Part shown: one piece after another, positions 5,401-64,000 of the stretch
Layout: each line of letters starts with the position of its first letter
Position numbering within the stretch: position 1 is the stretch's first letter
NCBI RefSeq assembly: GCF_032854445.1
Contig: NC_088298.1
Coordinates: forward strand, 13,937,504 to 14,001,503
Direction of reading: 5' to 3'
Source: Liolophura sinensis
Taxonomy: Eukaryota > Mollusca > Polyplacophora > Chitonida > Chitonidae
DNA: 64,000 nucleotides
Program-made: the position numbers and the translations under genes
The notes under the pieces: model-generated
Seen by the model: only the letters and a program-made list of their open reading frames with translations
Told to the model about the DNA's origin: nothing
Databases searched by the model: none

Positions 5401-5936
5401 TCTGATTTTCCTGTCCATGGTGTAGTCCTGTGTAGCAATAGCATCGTAAATATCGTCAAGATCAGAATGATTAGCGACAGCAGAATAATAAGTACACGAC
5501 TACAATGATTGAAATCAGGAACAGACTAATAACCTGAAAAATGAAGAATGATTTGTACCACGTATAAAATAATATAGGTTTTCCAAAGAATGCTGTGTAT
5601 CACTGTTGAATACCAACATTTAAGTAAGTGTTATGTGCATAATGATAACATGTATTACCATGTCCGGAGTTAGAACATATCTAAATAGATTGTATCCAAG
5701 TGTACACGTACAACTGACCCCCTGCTGGCAAACATCAGTGTTCATGTAACAAGGACAGTGATAATCATAGGTCGTCGTGCTGAGCTTCAGTCAAATATTC
5801 ATTTCGTCGCACTTTTTTACCATACTCGAGAAACATTTCACCTGTGCACTGTCCAGTACTTTTTAAGGAAGAAGGAAACCGTATACTTTCCCAGGTACAG
5901 ACTTGCAGGTCATACCGCTAAAAAATACATGAGGCC

Positions 5937-6072
5937 TTCATCGAGCGTAAGACTGCGACAAGGCCCTTCATCGAGCGTAAGGCTGCGCCAAGGCCTTTCA
6001 TCGAGCGTAAGAAATTGCGTCAAGGCCTTTCATCGAGTGTAAGACTGCGCCAAGGCCCTTCATCGAGCGTAA
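5937..6072 (+). repeat. 30-bp minisatellite, left part
   Basis: Tandem copies of a 30-bp unit built around CCTTCATCGAGCGTAAGACT and GCGCCAAGGC. The array continues at 6438-6665 after a SINE insertion. Because 30 is a multiple of 3 the array stays open in several frames and gives repetitive Arg-Gln-Gly-Pro-Ser-Ser peptides; this is an artefact of the period, not evidence of a gene. Confidence 0.9.
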
Positions 6073-6437
6073 CCGGCCCGAATAGCACAGTTGGTAGAGC
6101 GTCCGCTTAGGGACCGGTAGATCCAGGATCAATCCTAGATCGAGTCACACCTAAGACTTTAAAAGAGGAAGTTGTAACTTCCTCGCTTGGTGTTCAGCAT
6201 GAAGGAGATAGTGCAACGACTGGTTGACCCGTATCAGTATAATGGCTCAGGCGGGGCGGCTTACTTGCCTTCGGTAAGTCGTCTCAGTGATGCAGCACTA
6301 AATAAAAGAGCGGTGGAAATCCGTCCTGCAACAAGGAGGCACATTACACGTACATGCACCCTAATGATTCCTTCGTCGTCATATGACTGAAAAATTGTTG
6401 AGTACGACGTTAAACCCCAAGCACTCACTCACTCACT
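6073..6437 (+). mobile_element. SINE family B, near full length
   Basis: The head is tRNA-like, with an A box TAGCACAGTTGG and a B box GGATCAATCC, which together form an internal RNA polymerase III promoter. A ~230-bp body follows, and the 3' end reads TTGAGTACGACGTTAAACCCC plus a CACT repeat tail. It is flanked by CATCGAGCGTAA on both sides (6061-6072 and 6438-6449), consistent with a target-site duplication, but that string is also part of the host minisatellite so it is not independent proof. The copy at 42,808-43,181 is very similar over its whole length, so the family was recently active. Confidence 0.88.
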
Positions 6438-6665
6438 CATCGAGCGTAAGACTGTGCCATCCAGCGTAAGACTGCGCTAAGGCCCTTTATTGAGCGTAAG
6501 ACTGCGCCAAGGCCCTTCATCGAGCGTAAGACTGCGCCAAGGCCCTTCATCGAGCGCAAGACTGCGCCAAGGCTCTTCATCGAGGGTAAGACTGCGCCAA
6601 GTCCCTTCATCGGGCCTAAGACTGCGCCAAGGCCCTTCATCGAACGAAAGACTGTGCCAAGGCCC
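6438..6665 (+). repeat. 30-bp minisatellite, right part
   Basis: About seven to eight further copies of the 30-bp unit seen at 5937-6072, more diverged at the 3' end (ATCGGGCCTAAG, ATCGAACGAAAG). Confidence 0.9.
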
Positions 6666-6704
6666 TTTCAGTCATATCATCATTTTATTTTTGTTTTGAG
6701 GTTG

Positions 6705-8045: not shown

Positions 8046-8896
8046 TCCACCAGAGGGTCTGAGGAGGATAGAGAATGTTATCTGATCCACCAGAGGATCT
8101 GAGGGGGATAGAGAATGTCATCTGATCCACCGGAGGGACTGAGGAGGATAGAGAATGTTATCTGATCCACCAGAGGGTCTGAGGGGGATAGAGAATGTTA
8201 TCTGATCCACCGGAGGGACTGAGGAGGATAGAGAATGTTATCTGATCCACCAGAGGGTCTGAGGGGGATAGAGAATGTTATCTGATCCACCAGAGGGTCT
8301 GAGGGGGATAGAGAATGTTATCTGATCCACCGGAGGGACTGAGGAGGACAGAGAATGTTATCTGATCCACCAGAGGGTCTGAGGAGGATAGAGAATGTTA
8401 TCTGATCCACCAGAGGGTCTGAGGGGGATAGAGAATGTTATCTGATCCACCGGAGGGACTGAGGAGGATAGAGAATGTTACCTGATCCATCAGAGTGTCT
8501 GAAGAGGATAGAGAATGTTATCTAGATCCAACAGAGGATCTGGGGAGGATAGAGAATGTTATCTGATCCACCGGAGGGTCTGAACAGGATAGAGAATGAT
8601 ATCTGCTGCACCAGAGGGTCTGATGAGGATAGAGAATGTTATCTAGACCCAACAGAGGATCAGGGGAGGATAGAGAATGTTATCTGATCCACCAGAGGAT
8701 CTGAGGAGGATAGAGAATGTTATTTAGATCCACCAGAGGGTCTGAGGAGGACAGAGAATGTTGTCTGGTCAACCAGAGGGTACGAGGAGGATAGATATTG
8801 TTATCTGCTTCACCAGAGGGTCTGAGGAGGATAGATAATGTTATCTGCTTCACCAGAGGGTCTGAGGAGGATAGAGAATGTTATCTAGATCCACCA
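8046..8896 (+). repeat. 40-bp minisatellite (~21 copies)
   Basis: The unit runs GATCCACCAGAGGGTCTGAG, then GGGGATAGAGAATGTTATCT. Two subtypes alternate in the first half: CCAGAGGGTCTGAGGGGG and CCGGAGGGACTGAGGAGG. The 3' third is degenerate, with GATCCAACAGAGGATC and GCTTCACCAGAGGG variants and single-base length changes. Confidence 0.95.
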
Positions 8897-21840: not shown

Positions 21841-22825
21841 ATGGACGTAACATACTCACCATCAGATGTCGTTTGGCAGAAAGATGTTCACTGGTGGAAT
21901 GGAAGCACGTGGCTGAATAACACGTTGAAGAACGTCACAAAACACAAGACAAGGGATGAAGAGTTGGCCAAAATAGAAATTGCGGTACTGGCAATTATTT
22001 TGGTGCTGGCAATTTTCGGCAATACTTGTGTCCTCTTAGCTCTGAGCAGAAAACGAACGAATGTGTCTCGGATGCATATATTCATTATGCACCTCAGCAT
22101 TGCGGACCTACTGGTCGCCATCTTTAACGTCTTGCCTCAGATGCTTAATGATATCACATTCCGATTTCAAGGAAACGACTCTTTGTGTCGATTTGTAAAG
22201 TACATGCAAGTCGTAGTAATATATCTCTCTACATATGTGTTAGTCATGACGGCAGTGGATCGCTACAGGGCAATCTGCTTCCCGTTGTCGAACCACTCAT
22301 GGACTGCTAGGCGAGTGCACTTGATGGTTGTTGGAGCTTATTTTATTGCTTTCACTCTGAGTACGCCGCAATTATTCTTGTTCCACTATGGACGTACAGT
22401 TACCGGCGAAATGGATTGCTTGGCAAACTTCGACCCCTTTTGGTTGGTTAACGTTTACGTCACGTGGTTTACGGCAGCCGTGTACATCGTTCCTTTACTC
22501 ATTTTGACGTTTGCATATGGCTCAATTTGCTACACGGTATGGTTGCGCTCCAGACAACAAAAGTCCGCCAGCCACCCTGCCAAAGTCATCCACGAGGTAC
22601 AGTACAAAAGTACGGCAAGCACGTTGAATTCTGCTGCTGAAATTTCCAACCGTGTCCACAGGAAAGATGTCCATCCCAGAAGCCATTCATGCAGGGGATT
22701 CTCACGTGCGAAAATCAAAACAATCAAGTTGACTTTCGTTGTCATTTTGGCCTACGTTATCTGCTGGTCGCCGTTTTTCATTTCTCAGTTATGGTGGCTG
22801 TACGACGAATCCGTCGCTGAAAAGC
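21841..22825 (+). CDS. Vasopressin/oxytocin (conopressin)-type GPCR, coding exon 1
   Basis: Class A receptor for a nonapeptide of the vasopressin/oxytocin family, at the plasma membrane; family members signal through heterotrimeric G proteins. The exon encodes residues 1-328 plus one base. The ATG has A at -3 and G at +4, and an in-frame TAA lies 12 bp upstream. Extracellular N-glycosylation sequons are N20, N26 and N31. TM1 holds N61 (1.50), TM2 D89, TM3 ends in DRY (140-142), TM6 holds CWSP (308-311); C116 and C193 form the usual disulfide. Positions known to contact peptide in this family are kept: E46 (1.35), Q100 (2.61), D104 (2.65), K120 (3.29), Q123 (3.32), Q177 (4.60), Q316 (6.55). 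Oddities: the near-invariant W4.50 is Tyr167, and the family's CW before DIT is LN. The exon ends at a strong donor GTAAGT, in phase 1. CCAP/NPS-type receptors are the nearest alternative but lack the TM7 signature found in exon 2. Confidence 0.95.
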
Positions 22826-22904
22826 GTAAGTGGTAGAGACAGCACGGCTAGGCCGCTCTGGTCCATATTTTGTGGTCAATTTTACCAACACATCATTGCA
22901 TAGT

Positions 22905-24934: not shown

Positions 24935-25400
24935 GATACATTTACTGGATATCATCGCATTACAAGGATTACGGCGACTTGTTAACTGGACGGGAAAGAC
25001 GTCGGTGTAGAAGACATTGGGCAAATATTTGTTGGTCATTGGGTGATTTCCGATTGATACCTGTTTTCCATTACTTCTCTTTTATTCACATTTATCAGTA
25101 GATGGAACAGTGCATCTATACTGAGTTACCAGTAACTATTGAAGGCGATAATTTTGGATGGCTGAATGAAACTCCCAAACCACCGGTTGCTGATTTGTAT
25201 CATTATGAGAATGTCGTAGCATAAACCCAGCATATCTGCAATACAACAGAAAAGACTACAGTACAGGAAGTAAAGCTTGAGAAGCAACGAAATGACCACA
25301 CGTAATCGATGAAATCTGGTTTCATGTCAGTTTGTCTCAGTTAGGTGTTTATTCTAACTGCTCTACTTTAAATAGTACTAACTCAGCCGTTATTACTACT
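24935..25400. other. 3' part of the GPCR intron
   Basis: No repeat recognised. A short frame runs through the acceptor into exon 2, but its upstream part has no receptor similarity and is intronic. Confidence 0.6.
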
Positions 25401-25410
25401 GTCTTTGCAG

Positions 25411-25928
25411 AGTACGCCGTCATCATGATGCTGCTGGCAAGTCTTAACAGTTGTTGTAACCCATGGATATACCTGGCATTCAGTGGAAATCTTCTCTATC
25501 ATATCATACCTTGTAAATCCTTAAAACCACAACGGAAATCGACCCAGTTCACCACGCAGCCAACGGGACAATCCAAATCCAGGAAAGACGGTGATTCCAT
25601 TGAAATGCCAATTCTGGAGGGCCGGGGATCGCTCACGGGGCAGTCTAGTCGATTCACTCGCTTAACGTCTTTAAAATGGGAAGTGAATTCCATCGAATCT
25701 TCTTCCCCGAAAAAGAGTCCCTCTCCTCGAAGTTCTTCTCTAAAGAGCCTCGTGTCTCCGCATGTGAACCGAAAGTTCCAAGTGAGGGAGTTGAACGCCG
25801 ACAGGGAAGCCACATCGGGGATGATGATATCCGAGAACACGGCAGTTTTACCCATGAGAAACGGACAAAAACAATGTTTGCTTGGGGAAACGGATTCTTT
25901 AGAATCTGTGCATTCTGCTGCCGTTTAA
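25411..25928 (+). CDS. Vasopressin/oxytocin (conopressin)-type GPCR, coding exon 2
   Basis: Encodes residue 329 (shared codon) to 499 or 500 and the TAA stop. It supplies TM7 with the family signature ASLNSCCNPWIY (about 338-349, NPxxY motif included) and a ~150-residue cytoplasmic tail. Cys363 just after helix 8 is a candidate palmitoylation site. The tail is rich in Ser, Lys and Arg with several SP sites (SPKKSPSPRSSS), suitable for kinase and arrestin control, and is longer than in most family members. The last residues SAAV do not make a class I PDZ ligand. Splicing at this loop matches the intron position known in vertebrate oxytocin and V1 receptors. No canonical AATAAA was seen shortly downstream, so the 3' end is open. 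Confidence 0.93.
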
Positions 25929-36590: not shown

Positions 36591-36597
36591 TTTGAAC

Positions 36598-37145
36598 TAA
36601 CGCCCTTCCAAAGACACCAGACATGCGCTGGAATTAACGACATTCCAAAGACACCAGACATGCGCTGAAATTAACGCCCTTCCAAAGACACCAGACATGC
36701 GCTGAAATTAACGCCATGACAAAGACACCAGACATGCGCTAGAATTAACGCCATGACAATGACATCAGACATGCGCTGGAATTAACACCATGAGAAAGAC
36801 ACCAGACATTCGCTGGAATTAACACCATGACAAAGACACCAGACATGCGCTGGAATTAACGCCATGACCAAGGCACCAGACATGCGCTGGAATTAACGCC
36901 ATGACAAAGACACCAGACATGCGCTGGAATTAACGCCATGACAAAGACACCAGACATGCGCTGGAAATAACGTCGTTCCAAAGGCACCAGACATGCGCTG
37001 GAATTAACGCCATGACAAAGACATCAGACATGCACTGGAATTAACGCCGTTCCAAAGGCACCAGACATGCGCTGGAATTAACGCCATGACCAAGGCACCA
37101 GACATGCGATCGAATTAACGCCATGACAAAGACACCAGATATGCA
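36598..37145 (+). repeat. 37-bp minisatellite (~15 copies)
   Basis: The unit reads GAATTAACGCCATGACAAAG, then ACACCAGACATGCGCTG. Two subtypes occur, CCATGACAAAG and CC(C/G)TTCCAAAG. Single-base variants are scattered and copy 1 is adjacent to the old SINE-like element. Confidence 0.95.
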
Positions 37146-38589: not shown

Positions 38590-39125
38590 TCTGTAAGGTG
38601 AAACATGGGAGAGTACTGTACAGATGACGAGGTGAAACATGGTTGTTTAATGAACACACAACGAGGTTAAAAATAACATGAGAAGGTAATGAACATACGG
38701 CGAGGTGAAACATGGGCGAGTACTGAACGGACGACGAGATGAGACATGGGAAAGTAATGAACAGACGACGAGGTGAAACATGGCAGGGTAATGAACAGAC
38801 GACGAGGTGAAACATGGGAGAGTAATGTACAGACGACGAGGTGAAACATGGCAGGGTAATGAACAGACGACGAGGTGAAACATGGGAGAGTAATGTACAG
38901 ACGACGAGGTGAAACATGGGGGGTAATGAACTTACGACGAGGTGAAACATGTGAGGGTAATGAACAGACGACGAGGTGAAACATGGGATGGTAATTAACA
39001 GACGTCCAAGTGAAAGATAACAGGGGAGGGTAATGAACAGACGACGAGGTGAAAGATAACATATGAGGGTAATGAACAGACGACGACGTGAAAGATAACA
39101 TGTGAGGGTAATGAACAGACGATAT
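38590..39125 (+). repeat. ~34-bp minisatellite (~16 copies)
   Basis: The unit reads GACGACGAGGTGAAACATGG, then GAGAGTAATGAACA, with 33- and 34-bp length forms and a diverged 3' third (GAAAGATAACATGTGAGGG). It stays open over long stretches on the minus strand, giving a false frame of up to 288 codons. Confidence 0.95.
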
Positions 39126-39420: not shown

Positions 39421-39857
39421 TTAGACTGCCGTGTCATGGTCAATGTAAACGTGATCATAGTCGGCTCGTGTCACGCCAATTGAACCACTCTGTCCTGTGA
39501 CTTTCTGATGACTGAGATTGTCATACTTCGTATTTTGACCTGCGCGCACATCAGCGGAAGTGGCTGTAGCTTCCAAGTTGTAATAATCACTGGTCTCGTT
39601 TTCAGTCTGTGTCTCGTGGAAATCTTGGAGATGCCCGTATGTATTCGTGGCCAATTCACCACCGCTTTGTAGGTTATCGGCTTCCCGCAAGTGATTGTAA
39701 GAGTACACGGTCTGGTCTAGGCCAGTCACGTGACCATCAGACTCATTTTTATTGTATGATAAGTTGGCTGCATCTTGATTGGCCTCTCGCTGCCTTCGCT
39801 TCCGTTCTCTGATCACTTCCGGTGACTCATAGTAAACATCCGCTCCAGCAGAATTTT
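39421..39857 (-). CDS. Single-pass receptor, last coding exon (tyrosine-rich tail)
   Basis: Encodes the 144-residue C-terminal cytoplasmic tail and stop. The acceptor is TTTTTCTCTTCTAG. The first two bases AA complete a Glu codon with the G left by the 44-bp exon. It has 11 tyrosines, many in YxxL/V settings (YNHL, YGHL, YYNL, YDNL, YDHV). YYNL and YDNL also fit the Grb2 SH2 preference YxN. The basic stretch RERKRRQR sits near the start, and the protein ends in TAV, a class I PDZ-binding pattern. Similar TYxHL-type tails are known in large lophotrochozoan families of EGF, lectin or discoidin receptors. The function, probably phosphotyrosine signalling, is inferred. Confidence 0.85.
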
Positions 39858-39869
39858 CTAGAAGAGAAA

Positions 39870-40580
39870 AATAATATTCACTGAATATATCTTACTGTTT
39901 ATCTATTCTAAATGTCTAAATACAGGGCCAACACTAAATTATAGTGTAGACCTCTGTGTAAACTAGAGCAATAATTTGCACATACATATCGATAGACTGA
40001 CATGACAGAAATGATTGAATGGGTAAGCCGCACTTAGAGCTCAAATGGAGTATATGCTCAAGGCCAACAATGCCAAATATACAAGTATATGTACGAGTTA
40101 CTGCACATGTCAAGTATTTAATATAATGTATTAAGACATGCAACTGTTTCGTGTACCGGTATGGTTGACAATCTAAGTGTATGCTTAAGTCTACCCTTAT
40201 CCCGAGCCCATGTGTGAAAACCGCGCAAAGGACGCAGTCAGGACGATATTAATTCTCTTGAATACCTGCTAGACTGCTATCTCTGGCAAGACAGACTCTT
40301 GCATATAACCTGAACGTGTACGACCGCTCGGGATTTTAGTAAAGTTGTGTTTGAGGACATTAAAGGGATCATATCTCAATTACACAACGATGAATCCCAA
40401 CATTCTACAGTTTATGTTTTAGGTGTCACATAGATCACTGTTTCTGTAAGGCATAGACCGATATATCACTCGATAAAGCATAGTTTTGTACTGAACCTAT
40501 TCTATCAGACCCGCATTTGACGAGTGCCGGGGCACGTAGGCAAGCCTTCAGCCTCACATACACTGTAGGGGATGGATCTT
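39870..40580. other. Intron of the receptor gene
   Basis: Noncoding; no repeat recognised. Confidence 0.6.
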
Positions 40581-49225: not shown

Positions 49226-49605
49226 CTGACATGACCGCATGGCTACTGAGTGGCAGAGAAGCTCACGGTCTAACCCGCGAAACTGACTTGAGTGACTGAG
49301 AAATTGACATGACTGCATTTGTGACTGAATGACAGAGAAACTGATGGTTTAACTCGAGAAATTTACCCGGGTGATTTGAGAAATTGACATGACTGCATGT
49401 GTGACTGAGTGACAGAGAAACCCACAGTCTAACCCGAGAAACTGAGTGAGTGATTGAGAAGTTGACATGACTGCACGGGTGACTGACTGGCACAGAAACT
49501 CACGGTCTAACCAGAGATATTGACCGAGTGGCTTAGAAATTGACATGACTGCACTGGTGGCAGACCGCAGTGGCAGAGAAACTGGTCTAACCCAAAAAAG
49601 TGACG
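49226..49605 (+). repeat. ~79-bp degenerate tandem repeat (5 copies)
   Basis: The unit begins GAGAAATTGACATGACTGCA, with GTGACTGAGTGACAGAGAAA, then CTCACGGTCTAACCCGAGAA, and ends ACTGAGTGAGTGATT. Copies start near 49,226, 49,300, 49,378, 49,457 and 49,536. Ser/His-rich minus-strand frames over it are artefacts. Confidence 0.9.
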
Positions 49606-51437: not shown

Positions 51438-51536
51438 AGTCATGGACAAAATTTGAGGTCAAATACAGTAAGTCACGGACAAAATTTGAGGTCAAATACA
51501 GTAAGTCATGGACAAAATTTGAGGTCAAATACAGTA
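51438..51536 (+). repeat. 33-bp tandem repeat, 3 copies
   Basis: AGTCATGGACAAAATTTGAG, then GTCAAATACAGTA three times, with one C/T difference (CATGG/CACGG) in the middle copy, so it is a very recent expansion. Confidence 0.96.
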
Positions 51537-51539
51537 GGT

Positions 51540-51903
51540 TTGAAGACGACTTCTCTCCATTTACCGCAGACTCCTGCACTCTTTCCCTCTAGTATGCAAA
51601 CAATATTTACACAGACTACGAGACCAGAGCACCTTGAAAATCAATCTATTTCTGCTGTACAGCGTAAATGGCATGACTTGGTATAGTATTCATTCCGTAG
51701 CTAGGGAAAGTTTGCAGGCAAAAGAGAATGCAAACTTATGAATGCCTAATTTGCATACTGAACTATGCAATTTATGAAATACTCGACAATGCACTTACTT
51801 GGGTCCTCTACAACAATAGTGGAGGAAATCAGACAGTACGGACACAAACGTTATACATACATGTACTGATCCCCTCCTTCATAGTTACATGGATATTTCT
51901 AGA
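51540..51903. other. Spacer before the satellite array
   Basis: No repeat or gene recognised. It marks the left boundary of the 76-bp satellite. Confidence 0.6.
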
Positions 51904-52429
51904 GTGAAGAGTGTGCATACTGAGACAGTTTGGGCAATCACGGGAAGTGGCTGTCTTCTGTGACAGGTTGTGTCGTCATGTGAAGAGTGTGTATACTGAG
52001 ACAGTTTGGGCAATCACGTGAAGTGGCTGTCTTCTGTGACAGGTTGTGTCCTCATGTGAAGAGTGTGTATACCGAGACAGTTTGGGCAGTCACGTGAAGT
52101 GGCTGTCTTCTGTGACAGGTTGTGTCGTCATGTGAAGAGTGTGTATACTGAGACAGTTTGGGCAATCACGTGAAGTGGCTGTCTTCTGTGACAGGTTGTG
52201 TCGTCATGTGAAGAGTGTGTATACTGAGACAGTTTGGGCAATCACGTGAAGTGGCTGTCTTCTGTGACAGGTTGTGTCCTCATGTGAAGAGTGTGTATAC
52301 CGAGACAGTTTGGGCAGTCACGTGAAGTGGCTGTCTTCTGTGACAGGTTGTGTCGTCATGTGAAGAGTGTGTATACTGAGACAGTTTGGGCAATCACGCG
52401 AAGTGGCTGTCTTCTGTGACAGGTTGTGT

Positions 52430-55400
52430 CCTCATGTGAAGAGTGTGTATACTGAGACAGTTTGGGCAGTCACGGGAAGTGGCTGTCTTCTGTGACAGGT
52501 TGTGTCGTCATGTGAAGAGTGTGTATATCGAGACAGTTTGGGCAGTCACGTGAAGTGGCTGTCTTCTGTGACAGGTTGTGTCGTCATGTGAAGAGTGTGT
52601 ATACTGAGACAGTTTGGGCAGTCACGTGAAGTGGCTGTCTTCTGTGACAGGTTGTGTCGTCATGTGAAGAGTGTGTATACTGAGACAGTTTGGGCAATCA
52701 CGTGAAGTGGCTGTCTTCTGTGACAGGTTGTGTCGTCATGTGAAGAGTGTGTATACTGAGACTGTTTGGGTAGTCACGTGAAGTGGCTGTCTTCTGTGAC
52801 AAGTTGTGTCGTCATGTGAAGAGTGTGTATACCGAGACAGTTTGGGCAGTCACGTGAAGTGGCTGTCTTCTGTGACAGGTTGTGTCCTCATGTGAAGAGT
52901 GTGTATACTGAGACAGTTTGGGCAATCACGTGAAGTGGCTGTCTTCTGTGACAGGTTGTGTCGTCATGTGAAGAGTGTGTATACTGAGACAGTTTGGGCA
53001 ATCACGTGAAGTGGCTGTCTTCTGTGACAAGTTGTGTCGTCATGTGAAGAGTGTGCATACTGAGACAGTTTGGGCAGTCACGGGAAGTGGCTGTCTTCTG
53101 TGACAGGTTGTGTCGTCATGTGAAGAGTGTGTATACCGAGACAGTTTGGGCAGTCACGTGAAGTGGCTGTCTTCTAAGACAGGTTGTGTCGTCATGTGAA
53201 GAGTGTGTATACTGAGACAGTTTGGGCAATCACGTGAAGTGGCTGTCTTCTGTGACAGGTTGTGTCGTCATGTGAAGAGTGTGTATACTGAGACTGTTTG
53301 GGTAGTCACGTGAAGTGGCTGTCTTCTGTGACAAGTTGTGTCGTCATGTGAAGAGTGTGTATACCGAGACAGTTTGGGCAGTCACGTGAAGTGGCTGTCT
53401 TCTGTGACAGGTTTGTGTCGTCATGTGAAGAGTGTGTATACCGAGACAGTTTGGGCAATCACGTGAAGTGGCTGTCTTCTGTGACAGGTTATGTCCTCAT
53501 GTGAAGAGTGTGTATACCGAGACAGTTTGGGTAGTCACGTGAAGTGGCTGTCTTCTGTGACAGGTTGTGTCCTCATGTGAAAAGTGTGTATACTGAGACA
53601 GTTTGGGCAGTCACGTGAAGTGGCTGTCTTCTGTGACAGGTTGTGTCGTCATGTGAAGAGTGTGTATACTGAGACAGTTTGGGCAATCACGTGAAGTGGC
53701 TGTCTTCTGTGACAACTTGTGTCGTCATGTGAAGAGTGTGTATATCGAGACAGTTTGGGTAGGCACGTGAAGTGGCTGTCTTCTGTGACAGGTTGTGTCG
53801 TCATGTGAAGAGTGTGTATACTGAGACAGTTTGGGCAGTTACGCGAAGTGGCTGTCTTCTGTGACAGGTTGTGTCGTCATGTGAGAAGTGTGTATACCAA
53901 GACAGTTTGGGCAGTCACGTGAAGTAGCTGTCTTCTGTGACAGGTTGTGTCCTCATGTGAAGAGTGTGTATACCGAGACAGCTTGGACAATCACGCGAAG
54001 TGGCTGTCTTCTGTGACAGGTTGTGTCGTCATGTGAAGAGTGTGTATACCGAGACAGTTTGGGCAGTCACGCGAAGTGGCTGTCTTCTGTGACAGGTTGT
54101 GTCGTCATGTGAAGAGTGTGTATACCGAGACAGTTTGGGCAATCACATGAAGTGGCTGTCTTCTGTGACAAGTTGTGTCGTCATGTGAAGAGTGTGCATA
54201 CTGAAACAATTTGAGCAATCACGTGCAGTGGCTGTCTTCTGTGACAGGTTGTGTCCTCATGTGAAGAGTGTGTATACCGAGACAGTTTGGGCAGTCACGT
54301 GAAGTGGCTGTCTTCTGTGACAACTTGTGTCGTCATGTGAAGAGTGTGTATACCAAGACAGTTTGGGCAGTCACGTGAAGTGGCTGTCTTCTGTGACAGG
54401 TTGTGTCCTCATGTGAAGAGTGTGTATACCGAGACAGTTTGGGCAGTCACGTGAAGTGGCTGTCTTCTGTGACAGGTTGTGTCCTCATGTGAAGAGTGTG
54501 TATACCGAGACAGTTTGGGCAGTCACGTGAAGTGGCTGTCTTCTGTGACAACTTGTGTCGTCATGTGAAGAGTGTGTATACCAAGACAGTTTGGGCAATC
54601 ACGTGAAGTGGCTGTCTTCTGTGACAGGTTGTTTCGTCATGTGAAGAGTGTGTATACCGAGACAGTTTGGGCAATCACGTGAAGTGGCTGTCTTCTGTGA
54701 CAGGTTGTGTCGTCATGTGAAGAGTGTGTATACTGAGACAGTTTGGGCAATCACGCGAATTGGCTGTCTTCTGTGACAGGTTGTGTCCTCATGTGAAGAG
54801 TGTGTATACCGAGACAGTTTGGGCAATCACGTGAAGTGGCTGTCTTCTGTGACAAGTTGTGTCCTCATGTGAAGAGTGTGTATACTGAGATAGTTTGGGC
54901 AATCACGGGAAGTGGCTGTCTTCTGTGACAAGTTGTGTCCTCATGTGAAGAGTGTGTATACTGAGACAGTTTGGGCAGTCACGTGAAGTGGCTGTCTTCT
55001 GTGACAGGTTGTGTCCTCATGTGAAGAGTGTGTATACCGAGACAGTTTGGGCAATCACGTGAAGTGGCTGTCTTCTGTGACAAGTTGTGTCGTCATGTGA
55101 AGAGTGTGTATACCAAGACAGTTTGGGCAGTCACGTGAAGTGGCTGTCTTCTGTGACAGGTTGTGTCCTCATGTGAAGAGTGTGTATACCGAGACAGTTT
55201 GGGCAGTCACGTGAAGTGGCTGTCTTCTGTGACAGGTTGTGTCCTCATGTGAAGAGTGTGTATACCGAGACAGTTTGGGCAGTCACGTGAAGTGGCTGTC
55301 TTCTGTGACAACTTGTGTCGTCATGTGAAGAGTGTGTATACCGAGACAGTTTGGGCAATCACGTGAAGTGGCTGTCTTCTGTGACAGGTTGTTTCGTCAT

Positions 55401-58130
55401 GTGAAGAGTGTGTATACCGAGACAGTTTGGGCAATCACGTGAAGTGGCTGTCTTCTGTGACAGGTTGTGTCGTCATGTGAAGAGTGTGTATACTGAGACA
55501 GTTTGGGCAATCACGCGAATTGGCTGTCTTCTGTGACAGGTTGTGTCCTCATGTGAAGAGTGTGTATACTGAGACAGTTTGGGCAATCACGTGAAGTGGC
55601 TGTCTTCTGTGACAAGTTGTGTCCTCATGTGAAGAGTGTGTATACTGAGATAGTTTGGGCAATCACGGGAAGTGGCTGTCTTCTGTGACAAGTTGTGTCA
55701 TCATGTGAAGAGTGTGTATACTGAGACAGTTTGGGCAGTCACGTGAAGTGGCTGTCTTCTGTGACAGGTTGTGTCCTCATGTGAAGAGTGTGTATACCGA
55801 GACAGTTTGGGCAATCACGTTAAGTGGCTGTCTTCTGTGACAAGTTGTGTCCTCATGTGAAGAGTGTGTATACCGAGACAGTTTGGGTAGTCACGTGAAG
55901 TGGCTGTCTTCTGTGACAAGTTGTGTCCTCATGTGAAGAGTGTGTATACCGAGACAGTTTGGGCAGTCACGCGAAGTGGCTGTCTTCTGTGACAGGTTGT
56001 GTCATCATGTGAAGAGTGTGTATACTGAGACAGTTTGGGCAATCACGCGAAGTGGCTGTCTTCTGTGACAAGTTATGTCCTCATGTGAAGAGTGTGTATA
56101 CTGAGACAGTTTGGGCAGTCACGTGAAGTGGCTGTCTTCTGTGACAGGTTGTGTCGTCATGTGAAGAGTGTGTATACCAAGACAGTTTGGGCAATCACGT
56201 GAAGTGGCTGTCTTCTGTGACAAGTTGTGTCCTCATGTGAAGAGTGTGTATACTGAGACAGTTTGGGCAATCACGTGAAGTGGCTGTCTTCTGTGACAGG
56301 TTGTGTCGTCATGTGAAGAGTGTGTATACCGAGACAGTTTGGGTAGTCACGTGAAGTGGCTGTCTTCTGTGACAGGTTGTGTCGTCATGTGAAAAGTGTG
56401 TATACTGAGACAGTTTGGGCAGTCACGCGAAGTGGCTGTCTTCTGTGACAGGTTGTGTCGTCATGTGAGAAGTGTGTATACCAAGACAGCTTGGGCAATC
56501 ACGTGAAGTGGCTGTTTTCTGTGACAGGTTGTGTCCTCATGTGAAGAGTGTGTATACCGAGACAGTTTGGGCAATCACGTGAAGTGGCTGTCTTCTGTGA
56601 CAGGTTGTGTCGTCATGTGAAGAGTGTGTATACCGAGACAGTTTGGGCAGTCACGCGAAGTGGCTGTCTTCTGTGACAAGTTGTGTCCTCATGTGAAGAG
56701 TGTGTATACTGAGACAGTTTGGGCAATCACGCGAAGTGGCTGTCTTCTGTGACAGGTTGTGTCGTCATGTGAGAAGTGTGTATACCGAGACAGTTTGGGC
56801 AGTCACGCGAAGTAGCTGTCTTCTGTGACAGGTTGTGTCCTCATGTGAAGAGTGTGTATACCGAGACAGTTTGGGCAATCACGTGAAGTGGCTGTCTTTT
56901 GTGACAGGTTGTGTCGTCATGTGAAGAGTGTGTATACTGAGACAGTTTGGGCAATCACGTGAAGTGGCTGTCTTCTGTGACAAGTTGTGTCGTCATGTGA
57001 GAAGTGTGTATACCAAGACAGTTTGGGCAGTCACGTGAAGTGGCTGTCTTCTGTGACAGGTTGTGTCCTCATGTGAAGAGTGTGTATACTGAGACAGTTT
57101 GGGCAATCACGTGAAGTGGCTGTCTTCTGTGACAGGTTGTGTCGTCATGTGAAAAGTGTGTATACCGAGACAGTTTGGGCAGTCACGCGAAGTGGCTGTC
57201 TTCTGTGACAGGTTGTGTCGTCATGTGAAGAGTGTGTATACTGAGACAGTTTGGGCAATCACGGGAAGTGGCTGTCTTCTGTGACAACTTGTGTCGTCAT
57301 GTGAAGAGTGTGTATACCGAGACAGTTTGGGCAGTCACGTGAAGTGGCTGTCTTCTGTGACAGGTTGTGTCATCATGTGAAGAGTGTGTATACTGAGACA
57401 GTTTGGGCAATCACGCGAAGTGGCTGTCTTCTGTGACAAGTTATGTCCTCATGTGAAGAGTGTGTATACTGAGACAGTTTGGGCAGTCACGTGAAGTGGC
57501 TGTCTTCTGTGACAGGTTGTGTCGTCATGTGAAGAGTGTGTATACCAAGACAGTTTGGGCAATCACGTGAAGTGGCTGTCTTCTGTGACAAGTTGTGTCC
57601 TCATGTGAAGAGTGTGTATACTGAGACAGTTTGGGCAATCACGTGAAGTGGCTGTCTTCTGTGACAGGTTGTGTCGTCATGTGAAGAGTGTGTATACCGA
57701 GACAGTTTGGGTAGTCACGTGAAGTGGCTGTCTTCTGTGACAGGTTGTGTCGTCATGTGAAAAGTGTGTATACTGAGACAGTTTGGGCAGTCACGCGAAG
57801 TGGCTGTCTTCTGTGACAGGTTGTGTCGTCATGTGAGAAGTGTGTATACCAAGACAGCTTGGGCAATCACGGGAAGTGGCTGTTTTCTGTGACAGGTTGT
57901 GTCCTCATGTGAAGAGTGTGTATACCGAGACAGTTTGGGCAATCACGTGAAGTGGCTGTCTTCTGTGACAGGTTGTGTCGTCATGTGAAGAGTGTGTATA
58001 CCGAGACAGTTTGGGCAGTCACGTGAAGTGGCTGTCTTCTGTGACAAGTTGTGTCCTCATGTGAAGAGTGTGTATACTGAGACAGTTTGGGCAATCACGC
58101 GAAGTGGCTGTCTTCTGTGACAGGTTGTGT
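52430..58130 (+). repeat. Higher-order satellite block, copy 1 (75 monomers)
   Basis: Monomer-specific variants recur 5,700 bp downstream. Examples are GTGAGAAGTG at 53,881 and 59,581, GTTTCGTCAT near 54,630 and 60,330, CACGCGAATTGG near 54,754 and 60,454, and GCAGTTACGCG near 53,835 and 59,535. The offset is 5,701 before, and 5,700 after, the single extra T near 53,411. Confidence 0.92.
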
Positions 58131-61100
58131 CCTCATGTGAAGAGTGTGTATACTGAGACAGTTTGGGCAGTCACGGGAAGTGGCTGTCTTCTGTGACAGG
58201 TTGTGTCGTCATGTGAAGAGTGTGTATATCGAGACAGTTTGGGCAGTCACGTGAAGTGGCTGTCTTCTGTGACAGGTTGTGTCGTCATGTGAAGAGTGTG
58301 TATACTGAGACAGTTTGGGCAGTCACGTGAAGTGGCTGTCTTCTGTGACAGGTTGTGTCGTCATGTGAAGAGTGTGTATACTGAGACAGTTTGGGCAATC
58401 ACGTGAAGTGGCTGTCTTCTGTGACAGGTTGTGTCGTCATGTGAAGAGTGTGTATACTGAGACTGTTTGGGTAGTCACGTGAAGTGGCTGTCTTCTGTGA
58501 CAAGTTGTGTCGTCATGTGAAGAGTGTGTATACCGAGACAGTTTGGGCAGTCACGTGAAGTGGCTGTCTTCTGTGACAGGTTGTGTCCTCATGTGAAGAG
58601 TGTGTATACTGAGACAGTTTGGGCAATCACGTGAAGTGGCTGTCTTCTGTGACAGGTTGTGTCGTCATGTGAAGAGTGTGTATACTGAGACAGTTTGGGC
58701 AATCACGTGAAGTGGCTGTCTTCTGTGACAAGTTGTGTCGTCATGTGAAGAGTGTGCATACTGAGACAGTTTGGGCAGTCACGGGAAGTGGCTGTCTTCT
58801 GTGACAGGTTGTGTCGTCATGTGAAGAGTGTGTATACCGAGACAGTTTGGGCAGTCACGTGAAGTGGCTGTCTTCTAAGACAGGTTGTGTCGTCATGTGA
58901 AGAGTGTGTATACTGAGACAGTTTGGGCAATCACGTGAAGTGGCTGTCTTCTGTGACAGGTTGTGTCGTCATGTGAAGAGTGTGTATACTGAGACTGTTT
59001 GGGTAGTCACGTGAAGTGGCTGTCTTCTGTGACAAGTTGTGTCGTCATGTGAAGAGTGTGTATACCGAGACAGTTTGGGCAGTCACGTGAAGTGGCTGTC
59101 TTCTGTGACAGGTTGTGTCGTCATGTGAAGAGTGTGTATACCGAGACAGTTTGGGCAATCACGTGAAGTGGCTGTCTTCTGTGACAGGTTATGTCCTCAT
59201 GTGAAGAGTGTGTATACCGAGACAGTTTGGGTAGTCACGTGAAGTGGCTGTCTTCTGTGACAGGTTGTGTCCTCATGTGAAAAGTGTGTATACTGAGACA
59301 GTTTGGGCAGTCACGTGAAGTGGCTGTCTTCTGTGACAGGTTGTGTCGTCATGTGAAGAGTGTGTATACTGAGACAGTTTGGGCAATCACGTGAAGTGGC
59401 TGTCTTCTGTGACAACTTGTGTCGTCATGTGAAGAGTGTGTATATCGAGACAGTTTGGGTAGGCACGTGAAGTGGCTGTCTTCTGTGACAGGTTGTGTCG
59501 TCATGTGAAGAGTGTGTATACTGAGACAGTTTGGGCAGTTACGCGAAGTGGCTGTCTTCTGTGACAGGTTGTGTCGTCATGTGAGAAGTGTGTATACCAA
59601 GACAGTTTGGGCAGTCACGTGAAGTAGCTGTCTTCTGTGACAGGTTGTGTCCTCATGTGAAGAGTGTGTATACCGAGACAGCTTGGACAATCACGCGAAG
59701 TGGCTGTCTTCTGTGACAGGTTGTGTCGTCATGTGAAGAGTGTGTATACCGAGACAGTTTGGGCAGTCACGCGAAGTGGCTGTCTTCTGTGACAGGTTGT
59801 GTCGTCATGTGAAGAGTGTGTATACCGAGACAGTTTGGGCAATCACATGAAGTGGCTGTCTTCTGTGACAAGTTGTGTCGTCATGTGAAGAGTGTGCATA
59901 CTGAAACAATTTGAGCAATCACGTGCAGTGGCTGTCTTCTGTGACAGGTTGTGTCCTCATGTGAAGAGTGTGTATACCGAGACAGTTTGGGCAGTCACGT
60001 GAAGTGGCTGTCTTCTGTGACAACTTGTGTCGTCATGTGAAGAGTGTGTATACCAAGACAGTTTGGGCAGTCACGTGAAGTGGCTGTCTTCTGTGACAGG
60101 TTGTGTCCTCATGTGAAGAGTGTGTATACCGAGACAGTTTGGGCAGTCACGTGAAGTGGCTGTCTTCTGTGACAGGTTGTGTCCTCATGTGAAGAGTGTG
60201 TATACCGAGACAGTTTGGGCAGTCACGTGAAGTGGCTGTCTTCTGTGACAACTTGTGTCGTCATGTGAAGAGTGTGTATACCAAGACAGTTTGGGCAATC
60301 ACGTGAAGTGGCTGTCTTCTGTGACAGGTTGTTTCGTCATGTGAAGAGTGTGTATACCGAGACAGTTTGGGCAATCACGTGAAGTGGCTGTCTTCTGTGA
60401 CAGGTTGTGTCGTCATGTGAAGAGTGTGTATACTGAGACAGTTTGGGCAATCACGCGAATTGGCTGTCTTCTGTGACAGGTTGTGTCCTCATGTGAAGAG
60501 TGTGTATACCGAGACAGTTTGGGCAATCACGTGAAGTGGCTGTCTTCTGTGACAAGTTGTGTCCTCATGTGAAGAGTGTGTATACTGAGATAGTTTGGGC
60601 AATCACGGGAAGTGGCTGTCTTCTGTGACAAGTTGTGTCCTCATGTGAAGAGTGTGTATACTGAGACAGTTTGGGCAGTCACGTGAAGTGGCTGTCTTCT
60701 GTGACAGGTTGTGTCCTCATGTGAAGAGTGTGTATACCGAGACAGTTTGGGCAATCACGTGAAGTGGCTGTCTTCTGTGACAAGTTGTGTCGTCATGTGA
60801 AGAGTGTGTATACCAAGACAGTTTGGGCAGTCACGTGAAGTGGCTGTCTTCTGTGACAGGTTGTGTCCTCATGTGAAGAGTGTGTATACCGAGACAGTTT
60901 GGGCAGTCACGTGAAGTGGCTGTCTTCTGTGACAGGTTGTGTCCTCATGTGAAGAGTGTGTATACCGAGACAGTTTGGGCAGTCACGTGAAGTGGCTGTC
61001 TTCTGTGACAACTTGTGTCGTCATGTGAAGAGTGTGTATACCGAGACAGTTTGGGCAATCACGTGAAGTGGCTGTCTTCTGTGACAGGTTGTTTCGTCAT

Positions 61101-63830
61101 GTGAAGAGTGTGTATACCGAGACAGTTTGGGCAATCACGTGAAGTGGCTGTCTTCTGTGACAGGTTGTGTCGTCATGTGAAGAGTGTGTATACTGAGACA
61201 GTTTGGGCAATCACGCGAATTGGCTGTCTTCTGTGACAGGTTGTGTCCTCATGTGAAGAGTGTGTATACTGAGACAGTTTGGGCAATCACGTGAAGTGGC
61301 TGTCTTCTGTGACAAGTTGTGTCCTCATGTGAAGAGTGTGTATACTGAGATAGTTTGGGCAATCACGGGAAGTGGCTGTCTTCTGTGACAAGTTGTGTCA
61401 TCATGTGAAGAGTGTGTATACTGAGACAGTTTGGGCAGTCACGTGAAGTGGCTGTCTTCTGTGACAGGTTGTGTCCTCATGTGAAGAGTGTGTATACCGA
61501 GACAGTTTGGGCAATCACGTTAAGTGGCTGTCTTCTGTGACAAGTTGTGTCCTCATGTGAAGAGTGTGTATACCGAGACAGTTTGGGTAGTCACGTGAAG
61601 TGGCTGTCTTCTGTGACAAGTTGTGTCCTCATGTGAAGAGTGTGTATACCGAGACAGTTTGGGCAGTCACGCGAAGTGGCTGTCTTCTGTGACAGGTTGT
61701 GTCATCATGTGAAGAGTGTGTATACTGAGACAGTTTGGGCAATCACGCGAAGTGGCTGTCTTCTGTGACAAGTTATGTCCTCATGTGAAGAGTGTGTATA
61801 CTGAGACAGTTTGGGCAGTCACGTGAAGTGGCTGTCTTCTGTGACAGGTTGTGTCGTCATGTGAAGAGTGTGTATACCAAGACAGTTTGGGCAATCACGT
61901 GAAGTGGCTGTCTTCTGTGACAAGTTGTGTCCTCATGTGAAGAGTGTGTATACTGAGACAGTTTGGGCAATCACGTGAAGTGGCTGTCTTCTGTGACAGG
62001 TTGTGTCGTCATGTGAAGAGTGTGTATACCGAGACAGTTTGGGTAGTCACGTGAAGTGGCTGTCTTCTGTGACAGGTTGTGTCGTCATGTGAAAAGTGTG
62101 TATACTGAGACAGTTTGGGCAGTCACGCGAAGTGGCTGTCTTCTGTGACAGGTTGTGTCGTCATGTGAGAAGTGTGTATACCAAGACAGCTTGGGCAATC
62201 ACGTGAAGTGGCTGTTTTCTGTGACAGGTTGTGTCCTCATGTGAAGAGTGTGTATACCGAGACAGTTTGGGCAATCACGTGAAGTGGCTGTCTTCTGTGA
62301 CAGGTTGTGTCGTCATGTGAAGAGTGTGTATACCGAGACAGTTTGGGCAGTCACGCGAAGTGGCTGTCTTCTGTGACAAGTTGTGTCCTCATGTGAAGAG
62401 TGTGTATACTGAGACAGTTTGGGCAATCACGCGAAGTGGCTGTCTTCTGTGACAGGTTGTGTCGTCATGTGAGAAGTGTGTATACCGAGACAGTTTGGGC
62501 AGTCACGCGAAGTAGCTGTCTTCTGTGACAGGTTGTGTCCTCATGTGAAGAGTGTGTATACCGAGACAGTTTGGGCAATCACGTGAAGTGGCTGTCTTTT
62601 GTGACAGGTTGTGTCGTCATGTGAAGAGTGTGTATACTGAGACAGTTTGGGCAATCACGTGAAGTGGCTGTCTTCTGTGACAAGTTGTGTCGTCATGTGA
62701 GAAGTGTGTATACCAAGACAGTTTGGGCAGTCACGTGAAGTGGCTGTCTTCTGTGACAGGTTGTGTCCTCATGTGAAGAGTGTGTATACTGAGACAGTTT
62801 GGGCAATCACGTGAAGTGGCTGTCTTCTGTGACAGGTTGTGTCGTCATGTGAAAAGTGTGTATACCGAGACAGTTTGGGCAGTCACGCGAAGTGGCTGTC
62901 TTCTGTGACAGGTTGTGTCGTCATGTGAAGAGTGTGTATACTGAGACAGTTTGGGCAATCACGGGAAGTGGCTGTCTTCTGTGACAACTTGTGTCGTCAT
63001 GTGAAGAGTGTGTATACCGAGACAGTTTGGGCAGTCACGTGAAGTGGCTGTCTTCTGTGACAGGTTGTGTCATCATGTGAAGAGTGTGTATACTGAGATA
63101 GTTTGGGCAATCACGCGAAGTGGCTGTCTTCTGTGACAAGTTATGTCCTCATGTGAAGAGTGTGTATACTGAGACAGTTTGGGCAGTCACGTGAAGTGGC
63201 TGTCTTCTGTGACAGGTTGTGTCGTCATGTGAAGAGTGTGTATACCAAGACAGTTTGGGCAATCACGTGAAATGGCTGTCTTCTGTGACAAGTTGTGTCC
63301 TCATGTGAAGAGTGTGTATACTGAGACAGTTTGGGCAATCACGTGAAGTGGCTGTCTTCTGTGACAGGTTGTGTCGTCATGTGAAGAGTGTGTATACCGA
63401 GACAGTTTGGGTAGTCACGTGAAGTGGCTGTCTTCTGTGACAGGTTGTGTCGTCATGTGAAAAGTGTGTATACTGAGACAGTTTGGGCAGTCACGCGAAG
63501 TGGCTGTCTTCTGTGACAGGTTGTGTCGTCATGTGAGAAGTGTGTATACCAAGACAGCTTGGGCAATCACGGGAAGTGGCTGTTTTCTGTGACAGGTTGT
63601 GTCCTCATGTGAAGAGTGTGTATACCGAGACAGTTTGGGCAATCACGTGAAGTGGCTGTCTTCTGTGACAGGTTGTGTCGTCATGTGAAGAGTGTGTATA
63701 CCGAGACAGTTTGGGCAGTCACGCGAAGTGGCTGTCTTCTGTGACAAGTTGTGTCCTCATGTGAAGAGTGTGTATACTGAGACAGTTTGGGCAATCACGC
63801 GAAGTGGCTGTCTTCTGTGACAGGTTGTGT
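58131..63830 (+). repeat. Higher-order satellite block, copy 2 (75 monomers)
   Basis: Tandem repeat of 52,430-58,130. Differences I could find are few: GACAG/GATAG near 57,398/63,098, AGTGG/AATGG near 57,571/63,271, and CACGTG/CACGCG at 58,023/63,723. After about 63,830 the sequence instead continues like 62,461 onward, an offset of 1,368 bp (18 monomers). Confidence 0.92.
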
Positions 63831-64000
63831 CGTCATGTGAGAAGTGTGTATACCGAGACAGTTTGGGCAGTCACGCGAAGTAGCTGTCTTCTGTGACAGG
63901 TTGTGTCCTCATGTGAAGAGTGTGTATACCGAGACAGTTTGGGCAATCACGTGAAGTGGCTGTCTTTTGTGACAGGTTGTGTCGTCATGTGAAGAGTGTG

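Follow-up and report, generated by a model that had tools for sequence, protein, structure and literature searches.

A 14.3-kb tandem array in the genome of the chiton Liolophura sinensis is very probably a noncoding minisatellite at one locus that grew from a dispersed 38-bp repeat family by dimerization, expansion, and in-register block duplication. The window, by which we mean the whole 64,000-bp stretch that was analyzed, is C4:13937504-14001503 of an assembly of 609 Mb in 632 sequences; coordinates above 64000 are counted on past its end. TRF reports a 76-bp array that starts at 51904 and is cut off by the window end; once 60 kb of downstream sequence is added, it extends to about 66183. 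It consists of 188 tandem 76-bp monomers of 67 variant types; the window takes in monomers 0 to 158 and the first part of 159 (51904..64000, + strand). The mean pairwise identity of the 188 monomers is 94.7%, a T at 53412 is the single inserted base in the whole array, and no N bases occur in the 124 kb examined (the window plus 60 kb downstream).

Pattern searches place the 76-bp form at one locus only. All 167 genome-wide matches to an exact 20-mer of this form fall in the array, as do all 186 matches to a 30-mer pattern with ≤3 mismatches, which has 0 matches on the other strand and 0 elsewhere in the assembly. Minisatellites consist of tandem units of roughly 10 to 100 bp in arrays of kilobases, and an array of 76 bp × 188, on the kilobase scale, has this size. 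The label “satellite,” used in an earlier reading made from the sequence without database searches (here, the sequence-only reading), is too grand for a single 14-kb locus between genes. A classical, centromeric, or shared satellite was rejected, given that the 76-mer occurs at one locus, spans 14.3 kb, and has gene exons on both sides.

Nested block duplications

The hierarchy proposed in the sequence-only reading, nested in-register duplication at 38, 76, 760/1,368, and 5,700 bp, holds up. At its top, a block of 75 monomers is present in two tandem copies, as had been claimed, at 52360..58060 (monomers 6 to 80; 5,701 bp including the extra T at 53412) and 58061..63760 (monomers 81 to 155; 5,700 bp), both on the + strand. 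The block shows up as exact repeats, one of 3,986 bp at offset 5,700 and one of 1,058 bp at offset 5,701, and the two copies show 4 differences in 5,700 bp (99.93% identity), with copy-specific variants at 53412, 63099, and 63272. A block of 3 monomers is found at 51904..52131, with its second copy at 52132-52359 (+ strand; types 56-23-12 and 0-23-12); monomers 0 to 2 and 3 to 5 show 2 differences in 228 bp.

Smaller blocks are nested within the 75-mer copies. Two copies of a 10-monomer block lie at 54261-55020 and 55021-55780 (+ strand; monomers 31 to 40 and 41 to 50), and the duplication is repeated within the second 75-mer copy at 59961-61480; the 10-block copies show 5 differences in 760 bp, the identical five in both 75-mer copies. 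An 18-monomer block lies at 56009-57376 (+ strand) in the first 75-mer copy, with a partial second copy at 57377-58060 (monomers 54 to 61 versus 72 to 79, 1 difference in 608 bp). Its counterpart in the second 75-mer copy, at 61709-63076 (+ strand), has a full second copy that runs past the window end (63077-64444; monomers 129 to 146 versus 147 to 164, 6 differences in 1,368 bp). At the right end of the array, outside the window, monomers 168 to 177 and 178 to 187 form a second duplicated 10-monomer block with 6 differences, a count that leaves out the incomplete last 9 bases.

Variants singled out in the sequence-only reading mark these offsets, and its coordinates for them were correct to within 2 bases. 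Occurrences of GTTTCGTCAT (54631/55391), CACGCGAAT (54752/55512), and GAGATAGTTTGGG (54887/55647) are 760 bp apart, and those of GTCATCATG (56001/57369) and CAAGTTATGTCC (56069/57437) are 1,368 bp apart. The recurrence of 62461 at 63829 was borne out, with 121 surrounding bases identical, and four other recurrence pairs tested agreed at 120/121. Two claims needed narrowing: every offset was said to be an exact multiple of 76, which is true of all but the one inserted T at 53412, and the 10- and 18-monomer blocks were said to repeat, which they do as one-off duplications but without a long block series.

The block periodicity of the variants was checked by shuffling the monomer order. The fraction of monomers of the same type was 0.118 at lag 10, 0.112 at lag 18, and 0.628 at lag 75, versus ~0.02 in shuffles, and the observed fractions at lags 10, 18, 75, and 93 (that is, 75 + 18) were each reached by 0/2,000 shuffles. 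Removing one or the other 75-mer copy left lags 10 and 18 at 0/2,000. Lag 3 (reached by 7/2,000 shuffles), lag 7 (24/2,000), and lag 57 (30/2,000; 75 − 18) were weaker, and lags 1, 2, 5, 13, and 20 showed no same-type excess over 2,000 shuffles. Runs of identical types reached 52 in length but no more than 4 in 200 shuffles. Like higher-order repeats, the 75-mers are more alike (99.93%) than the monomers (94.7%); many serial blocks are absent, each block occurring twice in series.

A probable 38-bp ancestor and its dispersed family

Within the 76-mer consensus, the left and right halves are identical at 25/38 positions, a value reached by 0/2,000 shuffles (maximum 21), and the halves within individual monomers agree at 64.7% on average. 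Offset identity in the array is 0.65 at 38 bp versus 0.37 at 19 bp, and a 19-bp sublevel is not claimed. The 38-bp level, which the sequence-only reading had derived from the monomer, gains independent backing from the right-edge units and from a dispersed family that matches both halves. Directly past the array end at ~66183 and up to about 66360-66380, outside the window, lie four family-like 38-bp units and one intermediate; one right-edge unit scores 31 and 29 of 38 in the family comparison. The left array edge yielded no relic 38-bp units.

When the right edge was searched against the genome, 61 matches came back, at the edge itself and at 27 further places on 10 scaffolds, with E values down to 8e-28. 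The DNA was read at 18 of these 27 places (the ten best scoring, seven from the lower list, and one more). A 31-base family pattern with ≤3 mismatches has 883 matches genome-wide (523 forward and 360 reverse), and its reversed control has 0 forward and 0 reverse matches. Among the matches listed, 100 of 883, family copies occur on both strands and on many scaffolds. The family consensus, drawn from 427 units at 17 loci, is GTGTCAGTATACTGTGACTGGGTGGGGCGTCATGTCTG. Compared with a working family unit, the left half of the 76-mer agrees at 25/38 positions (shuffle maximum, 21) and the right half at 27/38 (shuffle maximum, 23), each reached by 0/2,000 shuffles; compared with the 427-unit consensus, the agreement is 23/38 and 27/38, values that carry no shuffle control. 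Both half-monomers align to the family in one rotation and register. The array is thus tied to the family by in-register alignment above chance and by relic units at an edge, the right one only.

Unit similarity is 0.766 within loci versus 0.672 between them (16 arrays of 8 or more units), and 0.776 versus 0.649 when the window's doubtful 37-bp array is added; likeness that is higher within than between loci is the usual sign of local homogenization and would indicate it here. The unit of the 37-bp array (36594-37144) holds GACACCAGACATG, the reverse complement of a core of the 38-bp family. The overall similarity is weak (consensus, 0.58), and kinship with the family is only possible. The left flank of the 76-bp array (51500-51903) has weak partial matches (69 to 81%) at four other places, as well as a nearby match of 36 bp. 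The four loci contain no family units clearly above shuffles (scores of 22 to 26 versus maxima of 23 to 28; one 26 versus 23), and these matches, rejected as kin of the 38-bp family, look like unrelated repeats.

Block formation recurs elsewhere, since a clear multiunit period is present in 3 of the 19 other arrays examined for one (18 family loci and the window's own 37-bp array). The periods are 4 units (0.88 versus 0.60 to 0.64 at lags 1 to 3), 6 units (0.90 versus about 0.78), and 2 units (0.85 versus about 0.76); the remaining 16 arrays show none, two of these being too short to tell. Among the other arrays with visible ends, none is near 14 kb. The array at C11:3254500-3257600 (L070) fills the entire 3.1 kb read and is at least 3.1 kb long.

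One explanation for the dispersal is that a transposable element, such as a Helitron or Helentron with central repeats, carried the 38-bp units and that the array is the overgrown core of one insertion. The presence of the family on both strands and many scaffolds, among the matches listed, fits such a carrier, and in the oyster Crassostrea gigas, short satellite arrays lie mainly in Helitron elements, according to two reports (PMC10048060, PMC11136912). However, the window array and 17 others share no sequence at a fixed place in their 600-bp flanks, words in the 150-bp flanks show no excess over random windows of those loci, and rolling-circle elements are annotated at only 0.15% of the genome in the main text of the genome paper (PMC11068029). 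Flanks of some of these 18 arrays do share pieces within 600 bp, at differing distances, sides, and orientations, and neither 600-bp flank of the window array matches the flanks of the 17 others. These observations weaken the carrier element, which we consider unlikely, if still plausible: old flanks could have decayed while the arrays stayed homogenized, and the flank results would argue against a recent carrier, not an old one. A ~147-bp interspersed element, probably a common short interspersed repeat, is found near several 38-bp arrays (e.g., L037:2584-2726) at varying distance and orientation.

The 38-bp family might instead spread as bare tandem DNA, for example, as excised, reinserting circles, with each landing homogenizing itself and sometimes entering runaway block duplication; the array would then be the most advanced case among arrays with visible ends. 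We hold this to be a distinctly unlikely scenario.

Order of events and the assembly

In the reading that we prefer, the array grew from the 38-bp family in steps. Sequence comparison shows that two diverged 38-bp units gave rise to the 76-bp unit, which multiplied; as the assembly shows, blocks of 3, 10, 18, and finally 75 monomers were then duplicated in register. The most likely cause of block duplication would be unequal homologous exchange between misaligned sister chromatids or homologs, with slippage or break-induced copying as alternatives. Hairpin-driven slippage was rejected, as the 76-mer folds no better than shuffles (z of 0.24 and 0.18); a dimer of the 38-bp family folds weakly better than shuffles (z of −1.99, with 10/200 shuffles as good).

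Both 75-mer copies carry the T40G mark of the second 18-block, in monomers 78 and 153. Because the variants of the 10- and 18-block duplications are common to both 75-mer copies, these duplications predate that of the 75-mer, which can be read as the youngest of the blocks. The divergences of the 10- and 18-blocks (5/760 and 6/1,368) are too close to rank them by age by themselves. The 75-mer copies diverge by 0.07%, versus a genome-wide heterozygosity of 1.24% in the main text of the paper on the Liolophura japonica assembly GCA_032854445.1 (PMC11068029); this low divergence suggests that the 75-mer duplication is a young change, possibly still varying between individuals.

Junction monomer 71 (57301..57376, + strand) is readable as a hybrid, its left part from monomer 164 and its right part from monomer 53. 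Monomer 71 carries A34G G72A, monomer 164 carries A34G G72C, and monomer 53 carries A34G T40C G72A, and a crossover of the latter two yields monomer 71 with zero mutations. Frequent change at position 40, where the C form creates a CpG, is one reason to put little weight on it. Junction monomers 3, 41, and 80 are, by eye, imperfect hybrids, each with at least one further change, and for this reason exchange is not proven; as signs of unequal exchange, the junction monomers are suggestive only.

Since the 14.3-kb array is longer than the mean read of 8,347 bp, monomer order and copy number rest on the assembly, for which the main text of the genome paper describes HiFi reads at 14x, hifiasm, and purge_dups (PMC11068029). 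The 75-mer duplication, the top nesting level, could be an assembly artifact that arose when a pair of alleles, or a single repeated path, was joined in tandem: a typical read does not reach across the array, the copies hardly differ, and one of their 4 differences is an extra T in a short T run. We consider this quite improbable. At the reported heterozygosity, misjoined alleles should differ at ~71 sites per 5,700 bp, but only 4 differences are seen. The copy junction holds monomer type 58, found once in the array, and the 63-bp junction stretch (58018..58080, + strand) is found once in the 124 kb examined; given this once-only monomer type and unique stretch, the junction should exist in real molecules. 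Moreover, the 124 kb contains no N, and the 76-mer pattern is absent elsewhere in the assembly. The number of 75-mer copies could nevertheless be wrong in the assembly.

Genomic setting and comparison with known repeats

With a receptor exon on its left and MutS-family exons on its right, the array sits between genes, not in a gene-free block. The left-hand exon, of a vasopressin/oxytocin-type receptor, is at 21841-22836 (+ strand; Pfam 7tm_1, E of 7.6e-42; PDB, E of 8.4e-73), and a candidate last exon of that receptor, without a Pfam match, is at 25296-25928 (+ strand). An open reading frame (ORF) of 156 amino acids at 39421-39891 (− strand) has repeated tyrosine motifs, looks receptor-tail-like by eye, and has no Pfam match. 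Pfam gave no match for 5 of the 6 window ORFs tried.

Among 8 right-side ORFs scanned with Pfam, 4 are MutS family, one is a C2H2 zinc-finger protein (~108.5-109.3 kb; L005:4505-5314, − strand), and three have nothing above the cutoff. The MutS-family exons, all on the − strand, correspond to domain V (76325-76540; L002:2325-2540), domain IV (82310-82558; L002:8310-8558; just below the cutoff), and domain III (86639-87025; L003:2639-3025; below the cutoff; and 87782-88081; L003:3782-4081; above the cutoff). They belong to a gene that is perhaps MSH4. The ORF at 66860-67090 (L001:2860-3090), for which Pfam gives only CHASE3, below the cutoff, may be the putative last exon of the MutS-family gene; if so, the array lies ~0.5 kb beyond the gene end.

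The array has no evident function. A coding role was rejected, as the part of the array within the window has no closed ORF of 100 amino acids or more and 76 is not a multiple of 3; a structured RNA was rejected, as no Rfam family reaches the gathering score in the window. No function is indicated, and the structure would be the outcome of recombination acting on a tandem array. That selection keeps the array, for example, as an E-box (CACGTG) cluster or as the 3′ region of the MutS-family gene, is very improbable indeed: CACGTG occurs in 127/188 monomers, and MutS-family exons run on the − strand from ~76 kb outwards with a possible last exon at 66860-67090, but a count of this size follows automatically from one motif in the founder monomer, position 40, which lies within CACGTG, ranks among the more variable (57/187 monomers differ), the 38-bp family consensus lacks CACGTG, and tandem arrays abound in the surroundings, where another 28 TRF arrays with periods of at least 10 make up 10.4% of the remaining 109.5 kb. 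Further arrays in the window lie at 5932-6667 (30-bp unit), 8046-8896 (40 bp), 38596-39122 (34 bp), 49227-49605 (78 bp), and 51438-51536 (33 bp).

Minisatellites and VNTR arrays with variant-repeat maps resemble the chiton array in their unit of tens of bases, in occupying one kilobase-scale locus in gene-containing DNA, and in a variant monomer order that records duplication; the chiton array differs in preserving larger blocks, of up to 75 monomers. In alpha satellite higher-order repeats, too, multimonomer blocks are duplicated as units and are far more alike than their monomers. However, alpha satellite extends over megabases and is shared by chromosomes, whereas each chiton block occurs only twice in series at one 14-kb intergenic locus. 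The oyster Cg170/HindIII family, as described in PMC10048060 and PMC11136912, is likewise a molluscan family of many short scattered arrays; its unit is about 164 to 166 bp versus 38 bp in the chiton, in which no shared flanking element was found.

The chiton repeat goes unmentioned in the titles and abstract openings among the matches listed from the open-license literature, and the main text of the genome paper (PMC11068029) contains no word starting with “tandem” or “satellite.” The explanation of the array, in-register block duplication of a minisatellite, is already known and reveals no new mechanism. What is new is the 38-bp founder family, the fossil edge, the occurrence of the array at a single locus, and the order of events. 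How the 38-bp family came to be scattered with no flanks in common is something that chiton genomes could answer. In the array itself, the stages of growth can still be followed, from the scattered 38-bp founder through the 76-bp dimer to the nested blocks, and units resembling the founder persist at one edge; models of tandem-repeat evolution could be tested cleanly on such a record.
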